Virus record (IMG/VR): IMGVR_UViG_3300036790_000802 | Location: 1 to 34,882 of that record | From: a virus | DNA: 34,882 bases | Reading direction: 5' to 3' (one strand) | In this document: in pieces, positions 1 through 14,606 of the stretch | Position numbering within the stretch: the first letter of the stretch is position 1 | Layout of the letters: each line of letters begins with the position of its first letter | Position numbers and translations under genes: made by a program | The notes under the pieces: model-generated | The model's database searches: none | The model's input: only the letters and a program-made list of their open reading frames with translations | What the model was told of the DNA's origin: nothing

Positions 1-1062
1 ATGCTCACCATTTATCGGCGGCATCGCGCGAAATGCAAAAGCTCGGCCAGAAAGGCAAAGTGTTTCTGCCCGATCTGGACGCAAGGGGTTCTGCGTGGCG
101 AGACGATTCGGAAGTCGCTCGATCTGACGAATTGGGAAGCCGCGAACAAGCTAGTAAGGGACTGGGAGATCCACGGGCAAGCGATGGTCGTGAGTGTGTC
201 CGACGCGCTCGACCGCTGGTATAAGGACTGCGAGGCACGGAATCTTTCGTCAGAATCTTTGCGAAAATACAAACGCCTTAAGGGATCTCTCATCGCGATT
301 TGGGGAGAAATACCGCTCCGGTCGCTTTCCGTGGATGACGTGCGGAAGATGCGTGAGGGGTGGACATTTTCCCCTGGAACGACGGCGAAACAGTTGGAAC
401 TCGTACGGGCATTTTTCTCTTTTTGCTTAACCTCGGGTTGGATCGAAAAAAATCCGGCCACAGCCGTCCGCGCCCCGCAAGCAAAAGTCGTCCCGACACT
501 TCCCTACTCTGATGCGGAATGGAAGGACATTCTGACCGCGCTTGATATGTACGGGGAGATCCATTATCAGTCCCCTCCTCGCATCCGGAAGCAGCTCCGC
601 GCTCTATTTCTGCTCATGCGATTTTCGGGGCTCCGCATTTCTGATGCGGTCGGCCTGGCGCGCGACCGGATCGATTCATCGGGGAATTTGTTTATTTACC
701 AGGCGAAGACGGGGCATCCCGTATCAGTTCCCCTCCCTAAATTAGTGATCAATGCGCTCGGGGAAATTGATGAGCACGGGCGATATTTTTTCTGGAATCG
801 TGAAGGGACATTGAAAACAGCGACAACTGATTGGTCATCGAAAATGAGGAAGGTATTTTTACTAGCCGGGATTCCGGATGGCCATTCACACCGGCTACGG
901 GATAGCTTTAGCGTCGATTTACTTTCAAAAGGAGTTCCATTGCAGACGGTTTCGATCCTGCTGGGCCATCGAAGTATCAAAACCACTGAGCGGCACTATG
1001 CCCCGTTTGTAAAGGCATCGCAGGACGCGCTCGATGCTGCCGTGAAGGGAACGTGGCAATGA
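1..1062 (+). CDS. int: Tyrosine recombinase / phage integrase
   Basis: Site-specific recombinase that would integrate and excise the phage genome by strand exchange through a 3'-phosphotyrosine intermediate. The 353-residue protein is full length. A Cys-rich N-terminus (C12, C21, C23) precedes a SAM-like core-binding domain (about 65-150) and a catalytic domain (about 165-345). The catalytic set is complete: R212 in LRISD, K236 in QAKTGHP, H297 and R300 in HRLRDS, H323 in LLGHRS, and nucleophile Y333 in RHYAPF. The ATG is the first base of the window, so the promoter and ribosome binding site are not visible, but the MLTIYRRH start looks like the natural N-terminus of this family. I associate the Cys-rich MLTIYRRH-type start with Acidobacteriota integrases; this is from memory and unverified. 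The downstream gene overlaps it by an ATGA, so the two are co-translated. Confidence 0.95.
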   Translation: MLTIYRRHRAKCKSSARKAKCFCPIWTQGVLRGETIRKSLDLTNWEAANKLVRDWEIHGQAMVVSVSDALDRWYKDCEARNLSSESLRKYKRLKGSLIAIWGEIPLRSLSVDDVRKMREGWTFSPGTTAKQLELVRAFFSFCLTSGWIEKNPATAVRAPQAKVVPTLPYSDAEWKDILTALDMYGEIHYQSPPRIRKQLRALFLLMRFSGLRISDAVGLARDRIDSSGNLFIYQAKTGHPVSVPLPKLVINALGEIDEHGRYFFWNREGTLKTATTDWSSKMRKVFLLAGIPDGHSHRLRDSFSVDLLSKGVPLQTVSILLGHRSIKTTERHYAPFVKASQDALDAAVKGTWQ

Positions 1063-1274
1063 GTTCCGAGTGGATGCATTTCAATATCAGCTGCCGTGAT
1101 TGCAAGAACAAAGGCACGCTTTCCATCTGGTCGGATGAGCGATTTCGGTGGGGCGCGGGGTGGGAAGGATTCAAAGGGACCGCGAGAATCACCGGGCCAC
1201 AAGAGGACACCATCCAATGCCTCAAGTGCAATCAAAAAAACATTCAGATCACGAAAGGTGGAAGCGCCAAATAA
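1059..1274 (+). CDS. Small zinc-ribbon protein coupled to the integrase
   Basis: A 71-residue protein with two CxxC pairs (CRDC near residue 12 and CLKC near residue 55), the spacing of a single zinc ribbon. No family is recognised. The ATG at 1059 overlaps the integrase stop as ATGA, and GAAGGGA at 1044-1050 makes a Shine-Dalgarno sequence. I therefore prefer this start over the in-frame GTG at 1053. Translational coupling suggests a role alongside integration, for example as an accessory or directionality factor, but that is inference from position only. It could equally be a small nucleic-acid-binding protein carried with the integrase. Confidence 0.7.
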   Translation: MSSEWMHFNISCRDCKNKGTLSIWSDERFRWGAGWEGFKGTARITGPQEDTIQCLKCNQKNIQITKGGSAK

Positions 1275-1348
1275 TAGAGGAGTTTCAAAAAGGAGGTACC
1301 CCAAACGTGGGAGTGGGTTCCTGCTTTTTAGCTGATACGGTTATTTGA

Positions 1349-1411
1349 TCCCGCCGAAGATGCGGGACGCAAATAAATTATTCATATGCCCGCCGCGACG
1401 TTGCCGGCGGG
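1349..1411 (+). terminator. Two tandem GC-rich hairpins after the integrase operon
   Basis: The first hairpin pairs TCCCGC (1349-1354) with GCGGGA (1362-1367) over a 7-nt loop and is followed by an A/T-rich stretch. The second pairs CCCGCCG (1389-1395) with CGGCGGG (1405-1411) and is followed by ATTATTTC. Neither has a clean run of T, but both lie in the right place to end the int transcript. They could also be protein-binding palindromes near attP. Confidence 0.4.
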
Positions 1412-1458
1412 ATTATTTCAGAACCTCGAAAAAACAAATCGCCGAAAATTCTGAGAAC

Positions 1459-1489
1459 CCTCCCCTTCTTTTTGCATTGAAGAGGGAGG
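1459..1489. repeat. Ten-bp hairpin with one bulge
   Basis: CCTCCC-CTTC (1459-1468) pairs with GAAG-A-GGGAGG (1479-1489), leaving a T-rich 10-nt loop and a single bulged A. No T tract follows on either strand, so it is not a typical terminator. It is one of several strong structures in this gap. Confidence 0.45.
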
Positions 1490-1829
1490 CGAAATAGAGC
1501 TGATGAAATCCTGTTGCGTCCATGCTTGCACGCTCCTTGTGGCGAAGAACCTTTGACGATCATTTCGGATGGGTTTTGCGATCGCAGTCAGTTCACGGTC
1601 CTGATGCGGCAACGGTCGCCAATTGCCATCCTTGCTCGTACTGCTTTACCGGCAATTCTCTGAGTGATGGGTAGGGTTTGCGCTTCTCACCCTCAACGTC
1701 CTTCACGGACTCAGCCTTTATTTATAGACGCGCTCGGACTCGTCATCCCATCATTCAAAGAACTGCTTGAAGTCCAGCGGGCGATCAAAGGAGAAGTCCA
1801 CTCCGGCGCAAGTAATTGGAGGAAACAAA

Positions 1830-1900
1830 AACAGTGTCCTTAGCACGAAACCCAACCTTGTGAGTAAAATTTCGCGCCGAGGACACTGTTCACAAGGTTG
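1830..1900. ncRNA. Interlocked inverted repeats, pseudoknot-like element
   Basis: Two perfect inverted repeats are interleaved. Arm A, AACAGTGTCCT (1830-1840), pairs with AGGACACTGTT (1880-1890). Arm B, CAACCTTGTG (1853-1862), lies inside the A loop and pairs with CACAAGGTTG (1891-1900), which directly abuts A'. A third inner pair, CGAAA (1846-1850) with TTTCG (1870-1874), can stack on stem A. An 11-bp and a 10-bp stem in A-B-A'-B' order is the topology of an H-type pseudoknot if transcribed, or of a compound protein-binding or recombination site if it acts as DNA. The strand of transcription is unknown. A match to a known RNA family was not recognised. Confidence 0.5.
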
Positions 1901-1950
1901 TCCCGCTAAGTCCATCTCAGCATGAAGTGTTTATAGAAAAGCGCAAGCCG

Positions 1951-1964
1951 CCCTGGGGATAAGT
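1951..1964. repeat. Copy 1 of dispersed repeat CCCTGGGGATAAGT
   Basis: This 14-mer is identical to 33281-33294, and its last 12 bases are identical to 25097-25108. A weaker neighbour, TGTGGGGATCA, follows at 1973-1983. The reverse complement begins ACTTATCCCCA, whose core TTATCCCCA differs from the DnaA box TTATCCACA at one base. Confidence 0.6.
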
Positions 1965-1979
1965 ATTCTCGTGTGGGGA

Positions 1980-2162
1980 TCAGCGTGAAATCACAGGCGG
2001 CTTGGGTAGCTGAAGCAGGGCACGCGACTCTGCAATGACTCTCTTAGTTCGGTCAATGCACAGTTCGGTTTCAAGGATGATCTGGCGAGAAGCTCGTAGC
2101 TGAATAAACGACGTGCGGACTAGATCGGACAGGTCATCCGAAGGGAAGGTTGATCCGGGCAT
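1980..2162 (-). CDS. Small helical protein of unknown function
   Basis: A 60-residue open frame starting at an ATG at 2162. The middle (about residues 18-52) is predicted to be helical by eye, with hydrophobic residues at heptad-like spacing and a basic/acidic mix, ending LLQLPKPPVISR. The composition looks protein-like, but there is no good Shine-Dalgarno sequence ahead of it. It is one of two short minus-strand frames in the gap between the integrase and the ATPase-nuclease gene, pointing back toward the integrase. Function unknown; it could be spurious. Confidence 0.35.
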   Translation of the reverse strand: MPGSTFPSDDLSDLVRTSFIQLRASRQIILETELCIDRTKRVIAESRALLQLPKPPVISR

Positions 2163-2256
2163 GACTTACACCGTCACCCATCATCGTACGCCGAATTCGA
2201 AACGAACGTTGCTTTGGAATTGTCGGCTGATGGCGAATCTAAGTGTGTTGGGAAGA

Positions 2257-2424
2257 TCAGTGCGGCTCCAAAAGCGCGATCTTCGCCTCTTTTTCTCGAA
2301 TGATTCGTTTTAACATGACGATTGATTCGGCATTCGGGCCTGGATTTTCAAGGAACCGGCGAAGGTCTTGCTTGTCGCGTTCAAGAGTTTGGCGCAGGGT
2401 TTGAATTTCCAGAAATTTATACAT
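2257..2424 (-). CDS. Small coiled-coil protein of unknown function
   Basis: A 55-residue frame beginning MYKFLEIQTLRQTLERDK and ending KEAKIALLEPH. It is almost entirely charged and leucine/isoleucine-rich with a heptad-like pattern, apart from a short NPGPNAES break near the middle. It therefore looks like a two-helix or coiled-coil protein. No ribosome binding site is evident ahead of the ATG. It sits upstream of the 1980-2162 gene on the same strand and could share a transcript with it. No family is recognised. Confidence 0.4.
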   Translation of the reverse strand: MYKFLEIQTLRQTLERDKQDLRRFLENPGPNAESIVMLKRIIREKEAKIALLEPH

Positions 2425-3238
2425 AGCGCAACAGAGTAACGCCGAACAACACTAGGGCATATGCAAGAGCCGTTCCATTTCGGCGACACGAACAATTCTA
2501 GGCGCGTTTTACACAAGAACTAAAGTTTATGTGTCCGTCATCCGAGAAATTGAGGCGTATACTTTCGCGCAGAGACCATATTTCGATTTGGTTCGGTTTC
2601 GTCATCATACTTTGGGGTTTTCATTCATGACATCTCAAGTTGCCTTGGTTCTCCGGAATGATCCGGAGAGAGCGGATTCGTGTGTTGATTCTGGTGTGGA
2701 GCGTGAGCCAGGTGTGAATCATCCGCTGCGCCGCGCGTCCGATCTTTTCATTTCATTGATCCCCGGCCATGACACATTCACCGAAAGAATTTTGAAGTTT
2801 CTCGGCGCACGCCACATTTAGAAAAAACCGCCGCCCCATTCAAGGAGTGTCGCGCGGTGCAAAAGATAATTCTTTTCGCTTTTCCAACTGGATGGGTCAT
2901 TCGTGATCATTCGCAGGTTCGACCCTTGCCTGTCCCATAAAGCAGGCAATATACAGGGTAGCGGCCGGAAGATGAAGATACTGTGAGGCGACTTTGGCGC
3001 TATCCTTTCCACTCAAGAGCGGTCTCCGCAAAAGCTAACTATCTCATTCGGCTGCGGCCCTATTGATTGGGATAACATTGGATGGCCAATTCGTATGATT
3101 TATTTCTTGCTTCGTGTTGTTTGAGATGGCGAAGAAATGGAGAATCGAGCGTGCTGAAAGGCTGCCGGATTCCGCTAGTTGAAACTATTCGAGATATAGA
3201 TTAGCGTGCATATCAGCTTTCATCTTGCAATGCTCTAG
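2425..3238. other. Long intergenic region holding a possible attP
   Basis: No gene is supported in this 0.8-kb stretch. A plus-strand frame at 2531-2821 lacks a ribosome binding site and a protein-like sequence. The notable contents are the tRNA 3'-end-like piece at 2913-2937 and a small perfect palindrome, ATTGG-ATGG-CCAAT, at 3077-3090 about 150 bp before the ATPase-nuclease gene. The palindrome could be an operator. Confidence 0.4.
2913..2937 (+). other. tRNA 3'-end-like fragment, candidate attP core
   Basis: GCAGG-TTCGACC-CTTGC (2913-2929) folds as a 5-bp T stem with a 7-nt loop of the TTCRANY type. It is followed by a 7-nt acceptor-like strand CTGTCCC and discriminator A (2930-2937), without CCA. 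The 5' half of a tRNA cannot be folded upstream, so this is a fragment and not a gene. Tyrosine integrases commonly use the 3' end of a tRNA gene as attB and carry a copy in attP, and this copy lies 1.9 kb from int. The core may start further 5' (about 2891). Confidence 0.4.
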
Positions 3239-5308
3239 GTGTCGAAAATGGCGAAAGAGCGCTCTTCTGCTCCGTTCCAGCTCCCAAAAGACGCAATCAA
3301 GAGGGCTAGCATCGGTCAGTCTTTTGCAGAATACGATCTGATTCGAGCTCATCCAGCTCTCTTTGTGGAAACCCCTGCGATGCGCGCGGCCGTTGATGTG
3401 AATCGTCCAAAATGCTTTTTCATCGGGCGGCGTGGCACAGGGAAGACGGCGGTGACGTTTTACTTGCAGTCGCGTAACTTTAAGAATGCAATACCCCTGA
3501 TTCCTCAGATGCTCTCGGCTGCTGACCAATACATTCCGAACGAGTGGTCGCCCGATGTCCATCAACAGCCATTTAAGACGCTCGTATGCAGCTTCAAGCG
3601 AGCAATTCTTGATGAGATTCTTTTTGTTTGGTTTAAGCAAGGGCTATATCGGCCGCACGCATCAAGCGTCATTACACGCGAAAAGAATGAAATTGAACAG
3701 TTCGACTTCGATTTAAGACTTCTCAACTTTATCTCTGAAGGCTTCGATGCATTGAATTCGCAGCCGAAAGAGTGGCTGAAATTTGTAGCTAAGCCGAAGC
3801 AAATCGCGGATGAGATGATGGTTGAAGCGACGACTCAGCGGCACAATTTCGTGGTCCTTATTGATAGGTTGGACGATTCTTGGAATGGTTCAGACAAGGC
3901 AGTCGTGCTGGTGATGGCGCTCATGCATGCATGTCTTGAGCTCAACGCCACGGTGACTTGCGCTCAACCGCTTGTGTTTGTCAGAGAGAATGTTTTCGAT
4001 CGAGTGAGGAGTCTCGATAGGGAATCGGCCCGTCTGGAGACGGCTGTCGTCTCGTTGGAATGGACACGTGAAATGCTTCGAGAATTCATCGAGCGGAGGC
4101 TGAATCGAAATCTCGTCGCGAAGCCTGCTCTTGGTGGACCGACCTGGAATGCGTTCTTTGAGCAACCGCAAAGTGGAAGCACAGAAGATCTAGTTTTTGG
4201 GTATTGCCAGTACCGGCCGCGCGACGTATTGATTTACGTTGCAAATGCGCTTGAGTCCGCCCAAGCACACCTTCGGACGAGAATAACGTTAGAGGATCTC
4301 GAGGTCGCGCGCAAGAAGTTCTCGGAAGGTCGCCTGAAGGATCTTTCGGATGAATACGCCGACAATTATCCGCGGCTTGGCATTATTCTTTCCAAATTTT
4401 ACGGTCTTGGGACCGAGTACACTGTTGCGGCTATCGATGATTTTTCGAAGAAACTATTAGTAGATGAAGAAGTAAAGGATGCCTGTCAAAGCTGGATCTA
4501 TAACTATAGCTCACCGGAATTGTTGATTAAGCTGCTTTACAATCTCGGCTTTGTTGGGATTAAGAATGATGGGACAGTCGCATTCAAATCGAGCGAATCA
4601 ACTCTCGCTATGATGCCGACCCTGACCGCCAAAAGCACACTTGTCATTCATCCAACTTATGTGAACGCTCTTAGCCTACAAGATGTTTTGGTTAATAGCA
4701 TGGGAGAGGAGGTACAACTCAGACAGTCAGGAATTGTTGCCGAACTCCCCGAATCAACTACTCTCAGGGTCTATAACGCCAAAATCGCGGCATTACAGAC
4801 GAAACTTGCCAATCTTACGTGTGGTGACGCAGAGTCGGCGGAATATGAAAAGATCGTGCAGGATCTGCTAAAACTGTGCTTTCATAAAGCGCTTACAAAC
4901 GTTCAGCCGAAGGTGCGAGACGTTTCGAGCAAGGTGATTCGTGATTTGATCGCAGCGAATTACTCCAGTATTCCCTTTTGGGAGATGCTGAGGGCAAAGT
5001 ATGGTGCTACGCAAGTGATCTTTGAATGCAAGAACTATATTGATTTGTCGGCTGATGATTTCCATCAAGTTGCTTACTACATGAATGAGGCAATTGGCCG
5101 GGCGGCATTCCTGGTCCATCGAGGCCCCGGAGAGCTCAAGAAAGGGTACCTTGATCACATACGGCGCATTCATTCCGATAAGCATGGCATCGTGCTTCTG
5201 TTGGGAGAAAGGGATTTGGAGGTTTTCCTGCGACAGGCTTTAAACGGCAAGAATAGCGAAGCGCACCTTCAAGATCTCTTCGATCGGACGGTCAGAGAGA
5301 TCTCGTAG
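3239..5308 (+). CDS. P-loop ATPase fused to a PD-(D/E)XK nuclease; candidate defence protein
   Basis: A 689-residue two-domain protein. The N-terminal ATPase has a Walker A motif GRRGTGKT (63-70), a Walker B-like VVLIDRLDD (205-213), and a later YRPRDVLIYVANA segment (about 325-337) of the type I recall from Sll1717-family P-loop ATPases. A middle region (about 370-480) looks like winged-helix or helical linker. The C-terminus (about 540-689) carries a restriction-endonuclease-like core: R560-D561, then IFECKNY with E596 and K598, then FHQVAYY (Q609). This is the D-x(n)-ExK pattern of DNA-cutting nucleases. Position between the integrase/att region and the lysis end, lone plus-strand orientation and AT-richer sequence than the virion genes suggest accessory cargo, probably anti-phage. 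GTG at 3239 or ATG at 3248 could be the start; neither has a strong ribosome binding site. No partner gene is visible. Confidence 0.8.
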   Translation: MSKMAKERSSAPFQLPKDAIKRASIGQSFAEYDLIRAHPALFVETPAMRAAVDVNRPKCFFIGRRGTGKTAVTFYLQSRNFKNAIPLIPQMLSAADQYIPNEWSPDVHQQPFKTLVCSFKRAILDEILFVWFKQGLYRPHASSVITREKNEIEQFDFDLRLLNFISEGFDALNSQPKEWLKFVAKPKQIADEMMVEATTQRHNFVVLIDRLDDSWNGSDKAVVLVMALMHACLELNATVTCAQPLVFVRENVFDRVRSLDRESARLETAVVSLEWTREMLREFIERRLNRNLVAKPALGGPTWNAFFEQPQSGSTEDLVFGYCQYRPRDVLIYVANALESAQAHLRTRITLEDLEVARKKFSEGRLKDLSDEYADNYPRLGIILSKFYGLGTEYTVAAIDDFSKKLLVDEEVKDACQSWIYNYSSPELLIKLLYNLGFVGIKNDGTVAFKSSESTLAMMPTLTAKSTLVIHPTYVNALSLQDVLVNSMGEEVQLRQSGIVAELPESTTLRVYNAKIAALQTKLANLTCGDAESAEYEKIVQDLLKLCFHKALTNVQPKVRDVSSKVIRDLIAANYSSIPFWEMLRAKYGATQVIFECKNYIDLSADDFHQVAYYMNEAIGRAAFLVHRGPGELKKGYLDHIRRIHSDKHGIVLLLGERDLEVFLRQALNGKNSEAHLQDLFDRTVREIS

Positions 5309-5431
5309 TGCGGCGAAGAAAAATTCGCACATCGAGGCAAATTGGCCACCTTTTCCCCAGTGAGCTTGGCGTCCGTGGGACGACGCGGCTTCCCAACCGC
5401 AAAGAAGAACTGGTGTAATCGAATTCTACGC

Positions 5432-5614
5432 TCATCGGGAAATTCCATGTATCACTTCGTGATAAAGCCACACGAAAAACAGAATCGTAAGCGCTATTTC
5501 AAGCGCGGCGAATTTCGCCATGAGAAGGTAGTTGAGGGGGCTTTTGTCGATGCGCCAATAGCCACGCCGTGGCTTGGAAGTTGGCGGCCGAAATAAAGAG
5601 ATTGGCGCAGACAA
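5432..5614 (-). CDS. Small single-span membrane protein
   Basis: A 60-residue protein with a basic N-terminus and one hydrophobic segment (about residues 34-51, KFAALEIALTILFFVWLY), so probably a one-pass membrane protein. It starts at TTG 5614, chosen because a strong AAGGAG lies 5 bases ahead. It follows the exported transglycosylase-like gene on the same strand and could be a lysis accessory such as a small holin or spanin-like peptide, but nothing in the sequence proves this. The overlapping plus-strand frame is less protein-like. Confidence 0.55.
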   Translation of the reverse strand: MSAPISLFRPPTSKPRRGYWRIDKSPLNYLLMAKFAALEIALTILFFVWLYHEVIHGISR

Positions 5615-5866
5615 GGTCTCTCCTTCATGCCCTAGCCACTTAAGAGAGATAGATTTTGGTTTGCGGTGAAACCGACACTGCCCGTTGCTAGGGTTGGGCT
5701 CGATCCGCGTGTCTGCGGGGCGATACGGTCCTGCGGTGTTGCGATGGGTTTTACGACAGAATGGCTCCGGACTAAATGTCTGGATCGCACTCTAAATGAG
5801 TGCTGAATGTTCGCTCTACATGAACGGACATGCTCCACCACAGTATGCCATTAAAAGGAACCTCTA

Positions 5867-6343
5867 TCAAGTCAAATGCAGGATCCGCGCGCAACTCCAG
5901 CGACTGAGATACCCGCGTTCGATTGCAATCTCGGCGAGCTCGACCGCCTGGGCGGGAATCATCGGATCTAAAACGGTGTGATCGATGGAATTGAACATGG
6001 CGACCGTGGAACTCTGCATCTGTAAAATCCCGTAGGAATAAAAGCCGTTCGAGTCGATGATTTTTACGCTCTTGTCGCGGCTTTCGCAGGCAATGAGGTA
6101 TGGAATGACCTTCTGTGCCTGTTCGGGGCTGAGCGGCTCGTTTTTGAGGAATGCGGGGCCGGTGTAGGGAGGCCGGGAGCCATATTCGAGAGAAAGCACC
6201 TGTCCTACCTCCAGGACGGCTCTTTCTTGCCCTTGTGGTGAGCTAGGAGCGACGTTTTGTACGACGGCGGGACTTGGGCTTATTGCGTATGCTTTTGGCA
6301 GAAAAAGGGCGATAAAAAGGGCACATAAATAGAGTTTTTTCAA
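5867..6343 (-). CDS. Exported lysozyme/transglycosylase-like protein
   Basis: A 158-residue protein with an N-terminal signal peptide (positive KK, hydrophobic LCALFIALFL, likely cleavage after AYA near residue 20). The mature part contains LIACESRD with a likely catalytic Glu87, followed by FYSYGILQMQ (102-111). This is the arrangement of the SLT/lysozyme-like fold, in which Glu cleaves the glycan backbone of peptidoglycan. A C-terminal RWSCAR motif pairs C151 with C86, possibly a disulphide after export. The start is a TTG at 6343 with no ribosome binding site, so it is uncertain, but it gives a well-formed signal peptide. It may degrade cell wall during release or entry, in addition to the M23 endolysin. 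A 260-bp leader lies upstream. Confidence 0.75.
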   Translation of the reverse strand: MKKLYLCALFIALFLPKAYAISPSPAVVQNVAPSSPQGQERAVLEVGQVLSLEYGSRPPYTGPAFLKNEPLSPEQAQKVIPYLIACESRDKSVKIIDSNGFYSYGILQMQSSTVAMFNSIDHTVLDPMIPAQAVELAEIAIERGYLSRWSCARILHLT

Positions 6344-6602
6344 AGTTGGTGCGGACTTGTAATTCTCTGGTGGCGGAGGGCAAGTCCACTAGCCTCGTGG
6401 CGTTGGCGGTATACCCGACGCTTAAGTAATCAGATACGCTTTACCCCTCCCCATCAGAGAACTACGCACCGCCGCCGATTGGGCTAAGCCGGTATGAAGG
6501 GCTTGGTTGGTTTGGACGACCTCATAATCTTTTCATGTTGGCGGCGAATTACAAGACCGGCTGTCCACACCCCGCTTAACACTTGCTAACATACGAATTC
6601 GC

Positions 6603-6632
6603 AAAAAAAACGCCCATAAGTAGGAATGGGCG
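6603..6632 (-). terminator. Rho-independent terminator of the DUF932 operon
   Basis: On the minus strand CGCCCAT (6632-6626) pairs with ATGGGCG (6617-6611) over an 8-nt loop and is followed by eight T (6610-6603). It begins directly after the stop codon of the 6633-6845 gene, so it ends the 7769-to-6633 transcript. Confidence 0.9.
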
Positions 6633-6845
6633 CTAGCGGCTGGGTGCCGGAGTGGGTTGGGAGGGTTGGCTCTCGAACTTCTTTTTGAGTTCGGCGAGTG
6701 TGATGGCGAGGCAATCCGAGGCGGTGCGATTGTGGTATTTGAAAATGTACGTCTTTTCGCCGCGCGGGATTTTCACTGACACCTTGTCGTCATCGAGCAA
6801 CGGCAAGTGGCAGTGATCGCAATATTCCTTGCCGTTCCAAAACAT
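6633..6845 (-). CDS. Small zinc-binding-like protein
   Basis: A 70-residue protein with CDHCHLPL (residues 9-16) near the N-terminus, a single Cys/His cluster that looks like half a zinc ribbon, followed by a beta-rich section and a charged tail ending in a Pro/Ser/Gln linker. The second metal-ligand pair is not obvious; H38 and C45 could serve. GAGGAA sits 3 bases ahead of the ATG. It is the last gene of a three-gene operon and is followed at once by a strong terminator. Function unknown. Confidence 0.65.
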   Translation of the reverse strand: MFWNGKEYCDHCHLPLLDDDKVSVKIPRGEKTYIFKYHNRTASDCLAITLAELKKKFESQPSQPTPAPSR

Positions 6846-6851
6846 GGTTCC

Positions 6852-7043
6852 TCACTTTCTGACTAGGACAAGTCGGTAGTCGGGGTCGAGATACTTTTGG
6901 TTGATCTCATCGACGATCTGTTCCGGTGGCGCGTTCCGGAACAGAATGTGCCAAGCGATGTGCTGCTTGTTCGGTAGAAGCGAGATGTTCCGCTTGTTCA
7001 TCCCGCCTCCAAGGGACTTTGGTTTGCGATGATGGCGCGTCAT
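6852..7043 (-). CDS. Small HNH-like protein
   Basis: A 63-residue protein beginning MTRHHRKPKSLGGG, then NISLLPNKQHIAWHILF. The HH...N...H...H order matches the short HNH-like proteins seen in phages and plasmids, where the first HH and the later H bind metal in a beta-beta-alpha fold. It lacks the flanking CxxC zinc knuckles of full HNH nucleases, so catalytic ability is uncertain. AAGGAG lies 5 bases before the ATG. The gene sits between the DUF932 gene (9 bp away) and the small zinc protein, in one operon. Confidence 0.65.
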   Translation of the reverse strand: MTRHHRKPKSLGGGMNKRNISLLPNKQHIAWHILFRNAPPEQIVDEINQKYLDPDYRLVLVRK

Positions 7044-7052
7044 TGAATCTCC

Positions 7053-7769
7053 TTAGTTCAATGAGTTGAAGAACTCGCCAAAGCTGGCGGTGGCTTTGAA
7101 CTGCGGGACCGGTTCGAGGAGCTTGAATCCGCTTGTGAAGGCGTTTTGCAAACTCCACTTCGTCCTGGGCGCAAAGTCCGGGAACGCTGGCTCGAAGTAT
7201 TCGTGATGAATCACTCGCGCCAGGTGTTTTGGGGCGTCGAGCTCGTCCTCGATGAACGCGCGATAGATGATTTCTTTCGCTTGTCCATCGGTGATCTGCG
7301 CGGCGCGCCAGTTCTCGATCTGGTCTGCCATCGGCTTGAAGTTCCGTTGCATCTGCTCAAGACCGACGGCCAGCGCAGAGTTGAGGTCGAAGTGCTTTGA
7401 GTGCTTGGCGAGAACCGGCTCGAAGTCGCCGGAGAACGCCATATTGTCGCAACAGAAAACGCGAACGCCGACAACGAGGCCCAAGCGCATCGATTTGTCG
7501 TTGGCATTGCGGAGTCCGAGCGAGAAGCGGAATCCTTCGCCCGTCGTTTCGAGATCCATCACCCCAAAGAGCTTCATGCCGTCTTGGGAGACCGCGTACT
7601 CCTCCTTCACGACATTGATATGCCGGAAAGAAAGCGATTCGAGGAGTGAGGTTACGAGGTGGATGTGTGCGATCGGCTTGTGAGTGTCGGTCGCCTCGGG
7701 TGGAAGGATTTCAGCGAGTTGTTCGCGGGTGAGCTTTTCTGCCCCGCAATGTGCCATGAGAGCTTCCAT
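7053..7769 (-). CDS. DUF932 (phage/plasmid-like) protein
   Basis: A 238-residue protein recognised as DUF932 by its central GLVVGVRVFCCDNMAFSGD segment (about residues 98-116) and the preceding FSLGLRNANDKS. DUF932 proteins are common on plasmids and phages and have no firm biochemical role. GGAGGA precedes the ATG at ideal spacing. This is the first gene of the operon that ends at the 6603 terminator. Its leader (7770-7962) has two inverted repeats and a CAAGGTGCGTACA element also found in variant form ahead of the endolysin and scaffold genes. A strong ribosome binding site sets this operon apart from the virion genes. Confidence 0.85.
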   Translation of the reverse strand: MEALMAHCGAEKLTREQLAEILPPEATDTHKPIAHIHLVTSLLESLSFRHINVVKEEYAVSQDGMKLFGVMDLETTGEGFRFSLGLRNANDKSMRLGLVVGVRVFCCDNMAFSGDFEPVLAKHSKHFDLNSALAVGLEQMQRNFKPMADQIENWRAAQITDGQAKEIIYRAFIEDELDAPKHLARVIHHEYFEPAFPDFAPRTKWSLQNAFTSGFKLLEPVPQFKATASFGEFFNSLN

Positions 7770-12878: not shown

Positions 12879-13853
12879 TTATTTCGGCTTCGTGAGGCCG
12901 GTATAGTTATTCGTCGGGTCCGCAGTGTTCGCGTACTTCTTAAAATTAGAGATGAACGATGAGGCGGGAAGTCCCTGCGCCTGCCACGCGCTCAATCCGG
13001 TCGCCCAATCTTTTGGATTGATGTATCCATCGGAACCGGTCACGCTGGAGAGTTCCGAATCCATGCTGGAGATGGAATCGGCGGTGGATGGCTTCGGCGG
13101 GGCCGATGTTTTACCCGGAAGAACCTGGTCGAACGTTTGGGTCGTCGGGTTCCATGTGTACGTCGCGCCGTTCGCGCCCTTGATCGTCTTCGGCGGTGCG
13201 CTCGCGGTCTTCTGATCTGCTGCCGCCTGTTTCGCCTGGGCCTCAAGCGCGGCGAGTTTCGCTTTGTTCGACGCGCTGGTCGCAGTGTTGTCGGCGGTCT
13301 CGCGCGTGACGAGATCTTTAACTTGGGCGAGCTTTGAGTTGTACTCGTCCTGATAATTTTTGATGTCGGCAGTCGCCATGTCCGTCACGTTTTTCACGCG
13401 GCCCACGCGGTCGGCCTCGTCGAGCCATGGATTGTCGTTGATATTTCCCGTTGCGGTCACGAGGTCATTCTGTCGGCCGGTGATCGTGTTCTGGAGCTGG
13501 TCTAAGCCAGCGGCGGAATAGGCCGAATTGTAAAGGTCGGTCTCATCGGTCGTCGGCGGGGCCGTGAGTGAGGACACCGCATCGGAGTACGACTTATACC
13601 CCAACGACTGGGCCACCTGATCTTCTGCGCTTTGTGAATCGGTCGGCGCACCGCTCGCGTCCGTCTTAGGAGTCGGCATTCCGGCTGCCGTGCGAAGTCC
13701 TGCGATGCGGGTGCTATACGCTGCCGCGCTTTCACCTGGCGCGAGTGCATATTGATTCGGGGTGATGCCGGTGTCCTTATCAATCGACGTGTCACCGTTC
13801 GGAAGGTTCGGCGTGAGGTTCGGTGCGGGGGTTGTTATAGGTGCGGAAAGCAT
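12879..13853 (-). CDS. Coiled, Ala/Thr-rich virion protein (probable ejection protein)
   Basis: A 324-residue protein rich in Ala, Thr, Ser and Asp. After a Pro-rich start it has a long helical stretch (about 95-215) with NKAKLAALEAQAKQAAADQK coiled-coil character. A small beta patch NGATYTWNPTTQTFDQV follows, and then a C-terminal domain ending FISNFKKYANTADPTNNYTGL. It lies between the adaptor gene and two larger internal proteins, spaced 2-3 bases from each neighbour, so it belongs to the same translation unit. The probable role is as an internal or ejection protein, by position. No catalytic motif is seen. Confidence 0.6.
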   Translation of the reverse strand: MLSAPITTPAPNLTPNLPNGDTSIDKDTGITPNQYALAPGESAAAYSTRIAGLRTAAGMPTPKTDASGAPTDSQSAEDQVAQSLGYKSYSDAVSSLTAPPTTDETDLYNSAYSAAGLDQLQNTITGRQNDLVTATGNINDNPWLDEADRVGRVKNVTDMATADIKNYQDEYNSKLAQVKDLVTRETADNTATSASNKAKLAALEAQAKQAAADQKTASAPPKTIKGANGATYTWNPTTQTFDQVLPGKTSAPPKPSTADSISSMDSELSSVTGSDGYINPKDWATGLSAWQAQGLPASSFISNFKKYANTADPTNNYTGLTKPK

Positions 13854-13856
13854 GGA

Positions 13857-14606
13857 TTAAGGAAAATTACCGATGTTTGTGTCAAACCGCGTCGAGCGGC
13901 GGGAGTTGAACATATCCTGCGTATTGAAGAACGGCTGGTGCTGCGCCATCTTTTCTGCCTTTCGGTCCCCCATCGGCTTCCAAACAACATCGAGCATCGC
14001 CATCCCGCGCGCTTCCTGGTCTTTCCCTCCGGCGACATTTTGTTTCTTGTCGCTCAAAAGCGCCTCTGAATAGGCAAGTAGAATGATCGCGTGATTGCCG
14101 GAATTCTCTTCGGCGTCTGAAGTCGGAGAGAACGGCAAGAGGTCGGTGGAATTGGAGAGGGTCGGCGCGCGCAACTTGCCGTACAAGCTGTAACTCTGCC
14201 CAGCGGAATATGCGGCCGGGTTCAGATAATATTTCCTGGCGAATTCCGTCCAAATGAGCGAAGTGTCGGTGGGATAGTTAGAGAGCCATCGCATGTACTC
14301 TGCGAAGTTCCGCTTGCCGTTCTCTCGCCCGGTCCATGGAACATTATTTATGACCACAAGGAAAATGCTCTCGTCTTCAAACGTCGCTGGGTACGCTATC
14401 GGTGTGGCCGAGGGGGTTCCCATCGTTCCGGTCGCCACGCCCTCGGTAAACGTCCAGGGCTTATAGTCCCACGCGCGCTTGACCCCGTTATTGATATAGC
14501 CGTCGATGTCGGCCTGCGAAAAAAGTGTGTTCGTCCCGGCGAGAACGTCGGCAACGTCAAGATTGAGTTGTGAGCACAGGGCAATTTCCGCTTCGCTGAG
14601 AATCAT
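13857..14606 (-). CDS. Head-tail adaptor / connector-like protein
   Basis: A 249-residue protein starting with a helical N-terminus that includes [21 protein letters not shown] middle FARKYYLNP and a C-terminal helix [20 protein letters not shown] follow. This layout resembles the small adaptor (gp4-like or connector) proteins that sit between portal and tail in short-tailed phages. The start ATG overlaps the stop of the HNH gene as ATGA, and there is no Shine-Dalgarno sequence, so translation may be coupled. Before HNH insertion the tail fibre gene would have been the direct upstream neighbour. The family is assigned by pattern and position, not by a search. Confidence 0.6.

Follow-up and report, generated by a model that had tools for sequence, protein, structure and literature searches.

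A prophage-borne ATPase with a FokI-like nuclease domain as a probable single-gene defence protein related to TnpX of Tn1000

The window analysed here, a stretch of 34,882 nucleotides taken from virus record IMGVR_UViG_3300036790_000802, carries near its integrase an intact gene whose product, to judge from its sequence, modelled structure and genomic position, is probably a prophage-borne protein that by itself defends against other mobile DNA. It is predicted to consist, in order, of an ORC/STAND-type AAA+ ATPase, a winged helix, a linker and a C-terminal FokI-like nuclease of the PD-(D/E)XK type. A preliminary description of the DNA had read it as a stand-alone sensor and effector that excludes competing phages, and this interpretation is supported, if not proven, by the domain content and the retention of the catalytic residues, by the gene's accessory and mobile distribution, and by the slot that it shares with restriction and defence genes. 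The protein may protect against phages, and it may sense before it acts, with no separate sensor domain recognised in it.

Residues 25-478 match the Sll1717 family of P-loop ATPases in NCBIfam (NF047389; E 2e-67; 228.3 bits against a curated cut-off of 75; profile positions 1-454 of 454 covered), and AlphaFold2, given 69 aligned sequences, models the whole protein with a mean pLDDT of 90.5 and a pTM of 0.72. The 689-residue reading frame is present as first described, and because of this family match and this model it is not a product of chance. A Pfam scan of the whole protein gave no family above thresholds, a sequence search of the PDB found no solved structure, and a structure search against viral models brought up generic AAA ATPases and, in one short match, a restriction endonuclease, but nothing else. 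The gene is indeed AT-richer than the virion genes (G+C of 48.7% versus 54.4% in structural genes), and no partner gene is present. The statement that it stands alone on the plus strand holds only loosely, as the tyrosine integrase lies on the same strand. Its placement beside int and att holds for the integrase but not for att, no convincing repeat having been found within positions 1-7100. The window record starts exactly at the integrase ATG, as many of its relatives do, and truncation there may have removed an att site. The provirus records L160, L161, L162, L165, L168, L169, L172, L174, L176, L178, L180 and L183 likewise end or begin exactly at the integrase start codon, and since these borders coincide with that codon their attachment sites were probably removed by the provirus caller. 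Between the integrase and the gene, positions 1275-3238 comprise about 2 kb without a convincing gene; within the same part of the window, 1438-1846 is 86% identical to L176, as is 2539-2986, which includes most of conserved element A, at 92%.

Table 1. Features of the window, and contents of the corresponding slot in related proviruses.
Feature	Position	Strand	Remarks
Tyrosine integrase	1-1062	+	PF00589 E 4.8e-19; phrog_1 E 4.5e-46; one border of the cargo slot
Conserved noncoding element A	2820-2993		left of the cargo; 95% identical over 65 nt in L161
ATPase-nuclease ORF	3239-5308	+	689 aa, intact, GTG start
Walker A (GRRGTGKT)	3425-3448	+	residues 63-70
Walker B	3851-3877	+	residues 205-213, with D209 and D212
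Winged-helix-like domain	4406-4693	+	about residues 390-485; helices 396-436 and strands 439-448 in the model
Flexible linker	4694-4762	+	about residues 486-508; pLDDT 54-63
PD-(D/E)XK nuclease domain (predicted)	4763-5305	+	residues 509-689
D569	4943-4945	+	
E596	5024-5026	+	
K598	5030-5032	+	
Q610	5066-5068	+	
Y614	5078-5080	+	
Conserved noncoding element B	5353-5413		right of the cargo; 95% identical in L161 and L189
Slot in L160			OLD-like AAA_15 + TOPRIM protein, VRR_NUC, HNH
Slot in L161			NotI-type enzyme, D12 methylase, AIPR
Slot in L162			C5 methylase (Dcm), Vsr, HNH
Slot in L168			GmrSD_N, FRG-SET protein
Slot in L170			N6/N4 methylase
Slot in L177			Mrr_cat
Slots in L183 and L189			DndB-like
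Slot in L198			N6/N4 methylase, AIPR

The strongest evidence for a defensive role is positional. With window proteins as queries, about 17 related proviruses were found, among which the integrase is common (up to 70% identity to that of the window), the homologue of window positions 7053-7769 is conserved (46-97% identity), and a homologue of 5867-6343 occurs in many. None of the stretches examined in these proviruses encodes a homologue of the ATPase-nuclease. The gene is accessory, and it sits in a slot that is held in relatives by known restriction and defence genes (Table 1); the slots of L167, L171, L174 and L178 hold no recognised defence gene. Several slots of the group also contain proteins of no recognised function. 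The gene behaves as exchangeable cargo, since the two conserved noncoding elements A and B that flank it have copies in relatives and adjoin one another in L161 without the insert. There, at 13784-14024, they nearly abut beside the NotI system, the joined flanks of the window align with this site at 80% identity over 256 columns, and L161 lacks the 2.36 kb that separate these flanks in the window, gene included, save for one weak 33-nt match elsewhere. Partial copies of element B occur in L160, one of them beside the OLD-like gene. Compared with shuffled sequences, element A folds somewhat better (z -2.4) and element B no better, and the two may be cassette-exchange sites or regulatory elements. 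An integrase-side prophage slot that swaps restriction and defence genes between short conserved elements can itself be searched for further systems.

This arrangement makes it improbable that the protein serves the life cycle of its own phage, for example in degrading or nicking host DNA, initiating replication or packaging. Replication does involve ORC-like ATPases, nucleases of the PD-(D/E)XK fold class are used by phages, and the gene does lie inside a phage record; however, the 17 or so related proviruses manage without it, it has a higher AT content than the virion genes, it is an exchangeable insert between conserved elements, and most of its homologues are found in chromosomes, plasmids or transposons rather than in phages.

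A role in defence is also supported by the domains and their conserved residues. The P-loop and the Walker B motif that had been assigned to the N-terminal half are borne out by 80 full-length homologues, in which G63, R64, R65, G66, G68 and K69 of the former and D209 and D212 of the latter are invariant. R249, R287, R326 and R328 are invariant in the same set and R265 nearly so, which makes them candidates for an arginine finger, as judged from conservation and a model of the monomer. The closest folds to residues 19-480 of the model are archaeal SSO1545 (Z 13.2), Cdc6 (12.7) and ORC2 (12.1), together with MuB (12.0) and, at about 11-12, TnsC, plant NLRs and CED-4; the ORC/Cdc6 alignments extend through the winged helix to residue 480. 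As modelled, with an AAA+ fold followed by a winged helix and with Walker A and B conserved, the ATPase is a member of the ORC/Cdc6-STAND clade of AAA+ proteins.

The ExK core reported for the C-terminal half is likewise real and conserved in E596-x-K598, but its proposed upstream acidic partner is not: D561, put forward as a catalytic residue, is D in just 8 of the 80 full-length homologues and is rejected, and D569 is conserved instead. The latter is D in 74/80 homologues, within R568-D569-x4-N574, position 596 is E in 64/80 and D in 10/80, K598 is K in 76/80, and Q610-x3-Y614 rounds off the set (Q610 in 76/80, Y614 in 74/80). One of the search seeds spanned the ExK motif, and the 52 rows obtained without that seed were checked separately. 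The full catalytic set is kept in 46 of these 52, with E in 44 and D in two, which is strong sequence evidence that the nuclease site is under selection and shows the ExK residues to be retained, not lost, among homologues. The fold prediction does have nuclease topology, and by its modelled core fold and its conserved D569, E/D596 and K598 the C-terminal domain is a member of the PD-(D/E)XK superfamily. In the model of the whole protein, residues 508-689 resemble FokI (Z 11.9) and the R.BspD6I small subunit (11.8). Modelled alone (pLDDT 95.1), the domain matches the BspD6I nickase best (Z 12.2; 3.1 A over 158 residues), then the BspD6I small subunit (12.0) and FokI (11.9), the top VIA matches to BspD6I and FokI spanning Z 11.6-12.2; AF1548 comes next (10.9), and Shedu SduA (9.7), Can2 (9.4), NucC (7.9) and McrBC (7.8) score lower. 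In a Foldseek search with the nuclease, FokI was the sole match below 0.001 (E 5.6e-4). A profile search of PDB sequences gave no FokI match up to E 10, and because sequence homology was not detected the likeness to FokI and BspD6I is a statement about the modelled fold.

The nuclease domain is perhaps a reusable effector domain. In Acidobacteriaceae (L106, L107, L111, L113, L114 and L116) it matches proteins of 361-482 residues that have no ATPase match. The PADLOC candidate profile PDC-M36A matches residues 522-663 of the window protein at E 9.5e-16; membership was rejected, as just positions 288-429 of the 457 in the profile are matched.

The gene belongs to a family that is patchily distributed and often mobile. 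Scans of viral and genome collections with the single sequence gave no homologues. Searches by tblastn found relatives that span 80% or more of the protein, at roughly 24% identity, both on 180 plasmids and on two Klebsiella phage records, the latter nearly identical to each other; an alignment of these relatives, scanned over the collections, then yielded 80 genome loci and 12 viral loci. Prophages and phage-plasmids carry members of the family, as do an integron-like array and the Tn1000 of the F plasmid. Homologues are frequently found in mobile contexts, and most lie in chromosomes, plasmids or transposons and not in phages. The tree resolves two deep clades, each with 100% SH-aLRT support. 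The close clade joins the window protein to relatives of 41-53% identity from Acidobacteriota, Planctomycetota, Actinomycetota and a betaproteobacterium, and the distant clade comprises TnpX and sequences mostly from Pseudomonadota, phages and plasmids. The window gene groups among Acidobacteriaceae sequences, which suggests an acidobacterial host. In the family of Terriglobus albidus, 16 of 250 genomes have some match and two have a full-length relative, which in one of the two is interrupted by what looks like a frameshift; in other proteins of these genomes the nuclease part or the ATPase part is also matched separately. A weak ATPase-only match (E 4e-4) was seen in the terminal 'DNA-binding protein' of the Pf-type filamentous phage PfAC09 (L009 5944-7446).

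Among the plasmid relatives is a hypothetical gene of the F plasmid that adjoins the resolvase. Its product, WP_000422420.1, is 24.8% identical over 97% of the window protein, with collinear ATPase and nuclease parts. From its place beside the recombinase and from the general organisation of Tn1000, we take this gene to be tnpX. That name is in use for the Tn1000 gene adjoining tnpR (PMC6340991). TnpX is annotated as hypothetical, and the papers searched, including those on Sll1717, PDC-M36A and passenger or defence functions of Tn1000, yielded nothing on function.

In the close clade the neighbours of the homologues are mostly ordinary genes, with integrases near the gene in L013 and L022. 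In Neorhodopirellula pilleata (L037 7772-12368), a stop interrupts an integron integrase, four direct repeats of 220 nt follow that gene, and the homologue lies between the third and fourth of these, as in a gene cassette; the integrase match and the positions of the repeats make them candidate attC sites. In the distant clade, methylases of types I, II and III occur among the immediate neighbours, together with specificity subunits, MzaA, PD-Lambda-5_B, PD-T7-4 and HmaB/C. A PADLOC scan of this clade at 1e-8 covered 110 genes that are immediate neighbours and 81 genes more than 6.5 kb away; because the latter still lie within defence-rich surroundings, a second control was made of 106 genes taken at arbitrary positions in 16 of those genomes. 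The three sets matched 140, 44 and 6 PADLOC families, respectively, figures that count families and not genes, as several models can match one gene. Since the genes beyond 6.5 kb also score, the data suggest that richness in defence genes is a property of the island and not of adjacency to the gene.

These mobile contexts raise the alternative of a helper in recombination or transposition, a protein by which the element moves or chooses its target. The ATPase matches chains of TnsC and MuB in fold, TnpX lies within Tn1000 next to the resolvase, and ATPase-REase proteins have been linked with transposable elements. Such a role is nevertheless unlikely: the window has a tyrosine integrase of its own, relatives with that family of integrase lack the gene, and Tn1000 moves with TnpA, resolvase and its ends. 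Genes for movement are also few around the homologues, Phage_integrase, the top Pfam family among the 110 immediate neighbours of the distant clade, accounting for 4, rve for 3 and Resolvase for 2.

As a defence protein, the ATPase-nuclease could work in the following way. The ORC/Cdc6-STAND-type ATPase, with its winged helix, would bind invader DNA or a structure formed in DNA processing or replication. In its ATP state the ATPase would assemble into a multimer, this assembly would pair the FokI-like domains at the C-termini, and as pairs they would cut DNA. FokI needs dimerisation to cut, and by analogy the same need may apply to the window protein. In this scheme we infer the ATP-dependent assembly, the pairing of the nucleases, the DNA target, the trigger and the protection itself. 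No modification enzyme accompanies the gene, and self-protection is not obvious because no methylase lies beside it. Should ATP-gated pairing of FokI-like domains be right, a single protein would lead from recognition to the cutting of DNA with no methylase for protection, and the sparing of the host would become a clear question. An addiction or suicide module, in which the ATPase restrains a toxin-like nuclease until a disturbance of the prophage or of another element frees it to kill the cell, is very unlikely: nuclease effectors of similar general fold, such as NucC (Z 7.9), do act by killing the cell and the lack of an adjoining modification enzyme would suit such a module, but no antitoxin-like small partner adjoins the gene, the fold is closer to the sequence-targeted or DNA-bound nucleases FokI and BspD6I than to NucC, and the ATPase belongs to a DNA-binding clade. 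Restriction-like action is favoured over suicide, and we lean towards invader DNA as the target.

A wider proposition has about an even chance of being right: that proteins of this type form a widespread immune family, as yet without a name and encoded by one gene, whose ORC-like ATPase gathers on the DNA of an invader and so switches on the FokI-type nuclease tethered to it, with neither a methylase nor a partner, and that this family is carried by prophages, phage-plasmids, an integron and Tn1000. If it is, an immune gene travels with the F plasmid's own transposon, and the family offers a testable function for TnpX.

The preliminary description had recognised no named system here, which is fair, as the protein has a name only as an Sll1717-family ATPase and, in a relative, as TnpX of Tn1000. 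With the Sll1717 family NF047389 it has the ATPase and winged-helix part in common, whereas that model is without the nuclease and several members are ATPase-only. TnpX of Tn1000 (gamma-delta) has nearly equal length, an identical domain order and the same catalytic set, but belongs to the other deep clade and is carried by a Tn3-type transposon beside a resolvase rather than by a prophage. DS-41, from DefensePredictor, is an experimentally tested antiphage system (PMC13092281); its model NF053860 bears a remote likeness to the window ATPase over residues 202-369 (E 1.2e-5), and membership was rejected at 24.5 bits against a cut-off of 370. OLD-family nucleases and Gabija GajA likewise combine an ATPase and a nuclease in one protein, and an OLD-like gene occupies the slot of L160, but these pair an ABC-type ATPase with TOPRIM, whereas the window protein pairs an ORC/STAND AAA+ ATPase with PD-(D/E)XK; membership was rejected, the nuclease being modelled as PD-(D/E)XK and the Pfam scan giving no TOPRIM or ABC-type match. 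The cleavage domains of FokI and of R.BspD6I/Nt.BspD6I share the modelled fold of the C-terminal domain (Z about 12), and where a recognition domain carries the nuclease in FokI, it is tethered to an ATPase here.

Counterparts in outline are the CR-effectors and their prokaryotic relatives, for which the order ORC/Cdc6 NTPase, HTH and REase has been described (PMC10853773, PMC5289972); ATPases of the ORC/Cdc6 type are also recurrent in BREX and related defence (PMC12839542). By description, which is the basis of the comparison, the domain order of the CR-effector-like proteins is that of the window protein, although CR-effectors are described as a class and are in part eukaryotic effectors. 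The architecture is therefore of a kind already known in outline, and what is new is that a family of single genes encoding a FokI-like nuclease is recognised here, that it is linked to TnpX of Tn1000 and that it has a place in a prophage defence slot.
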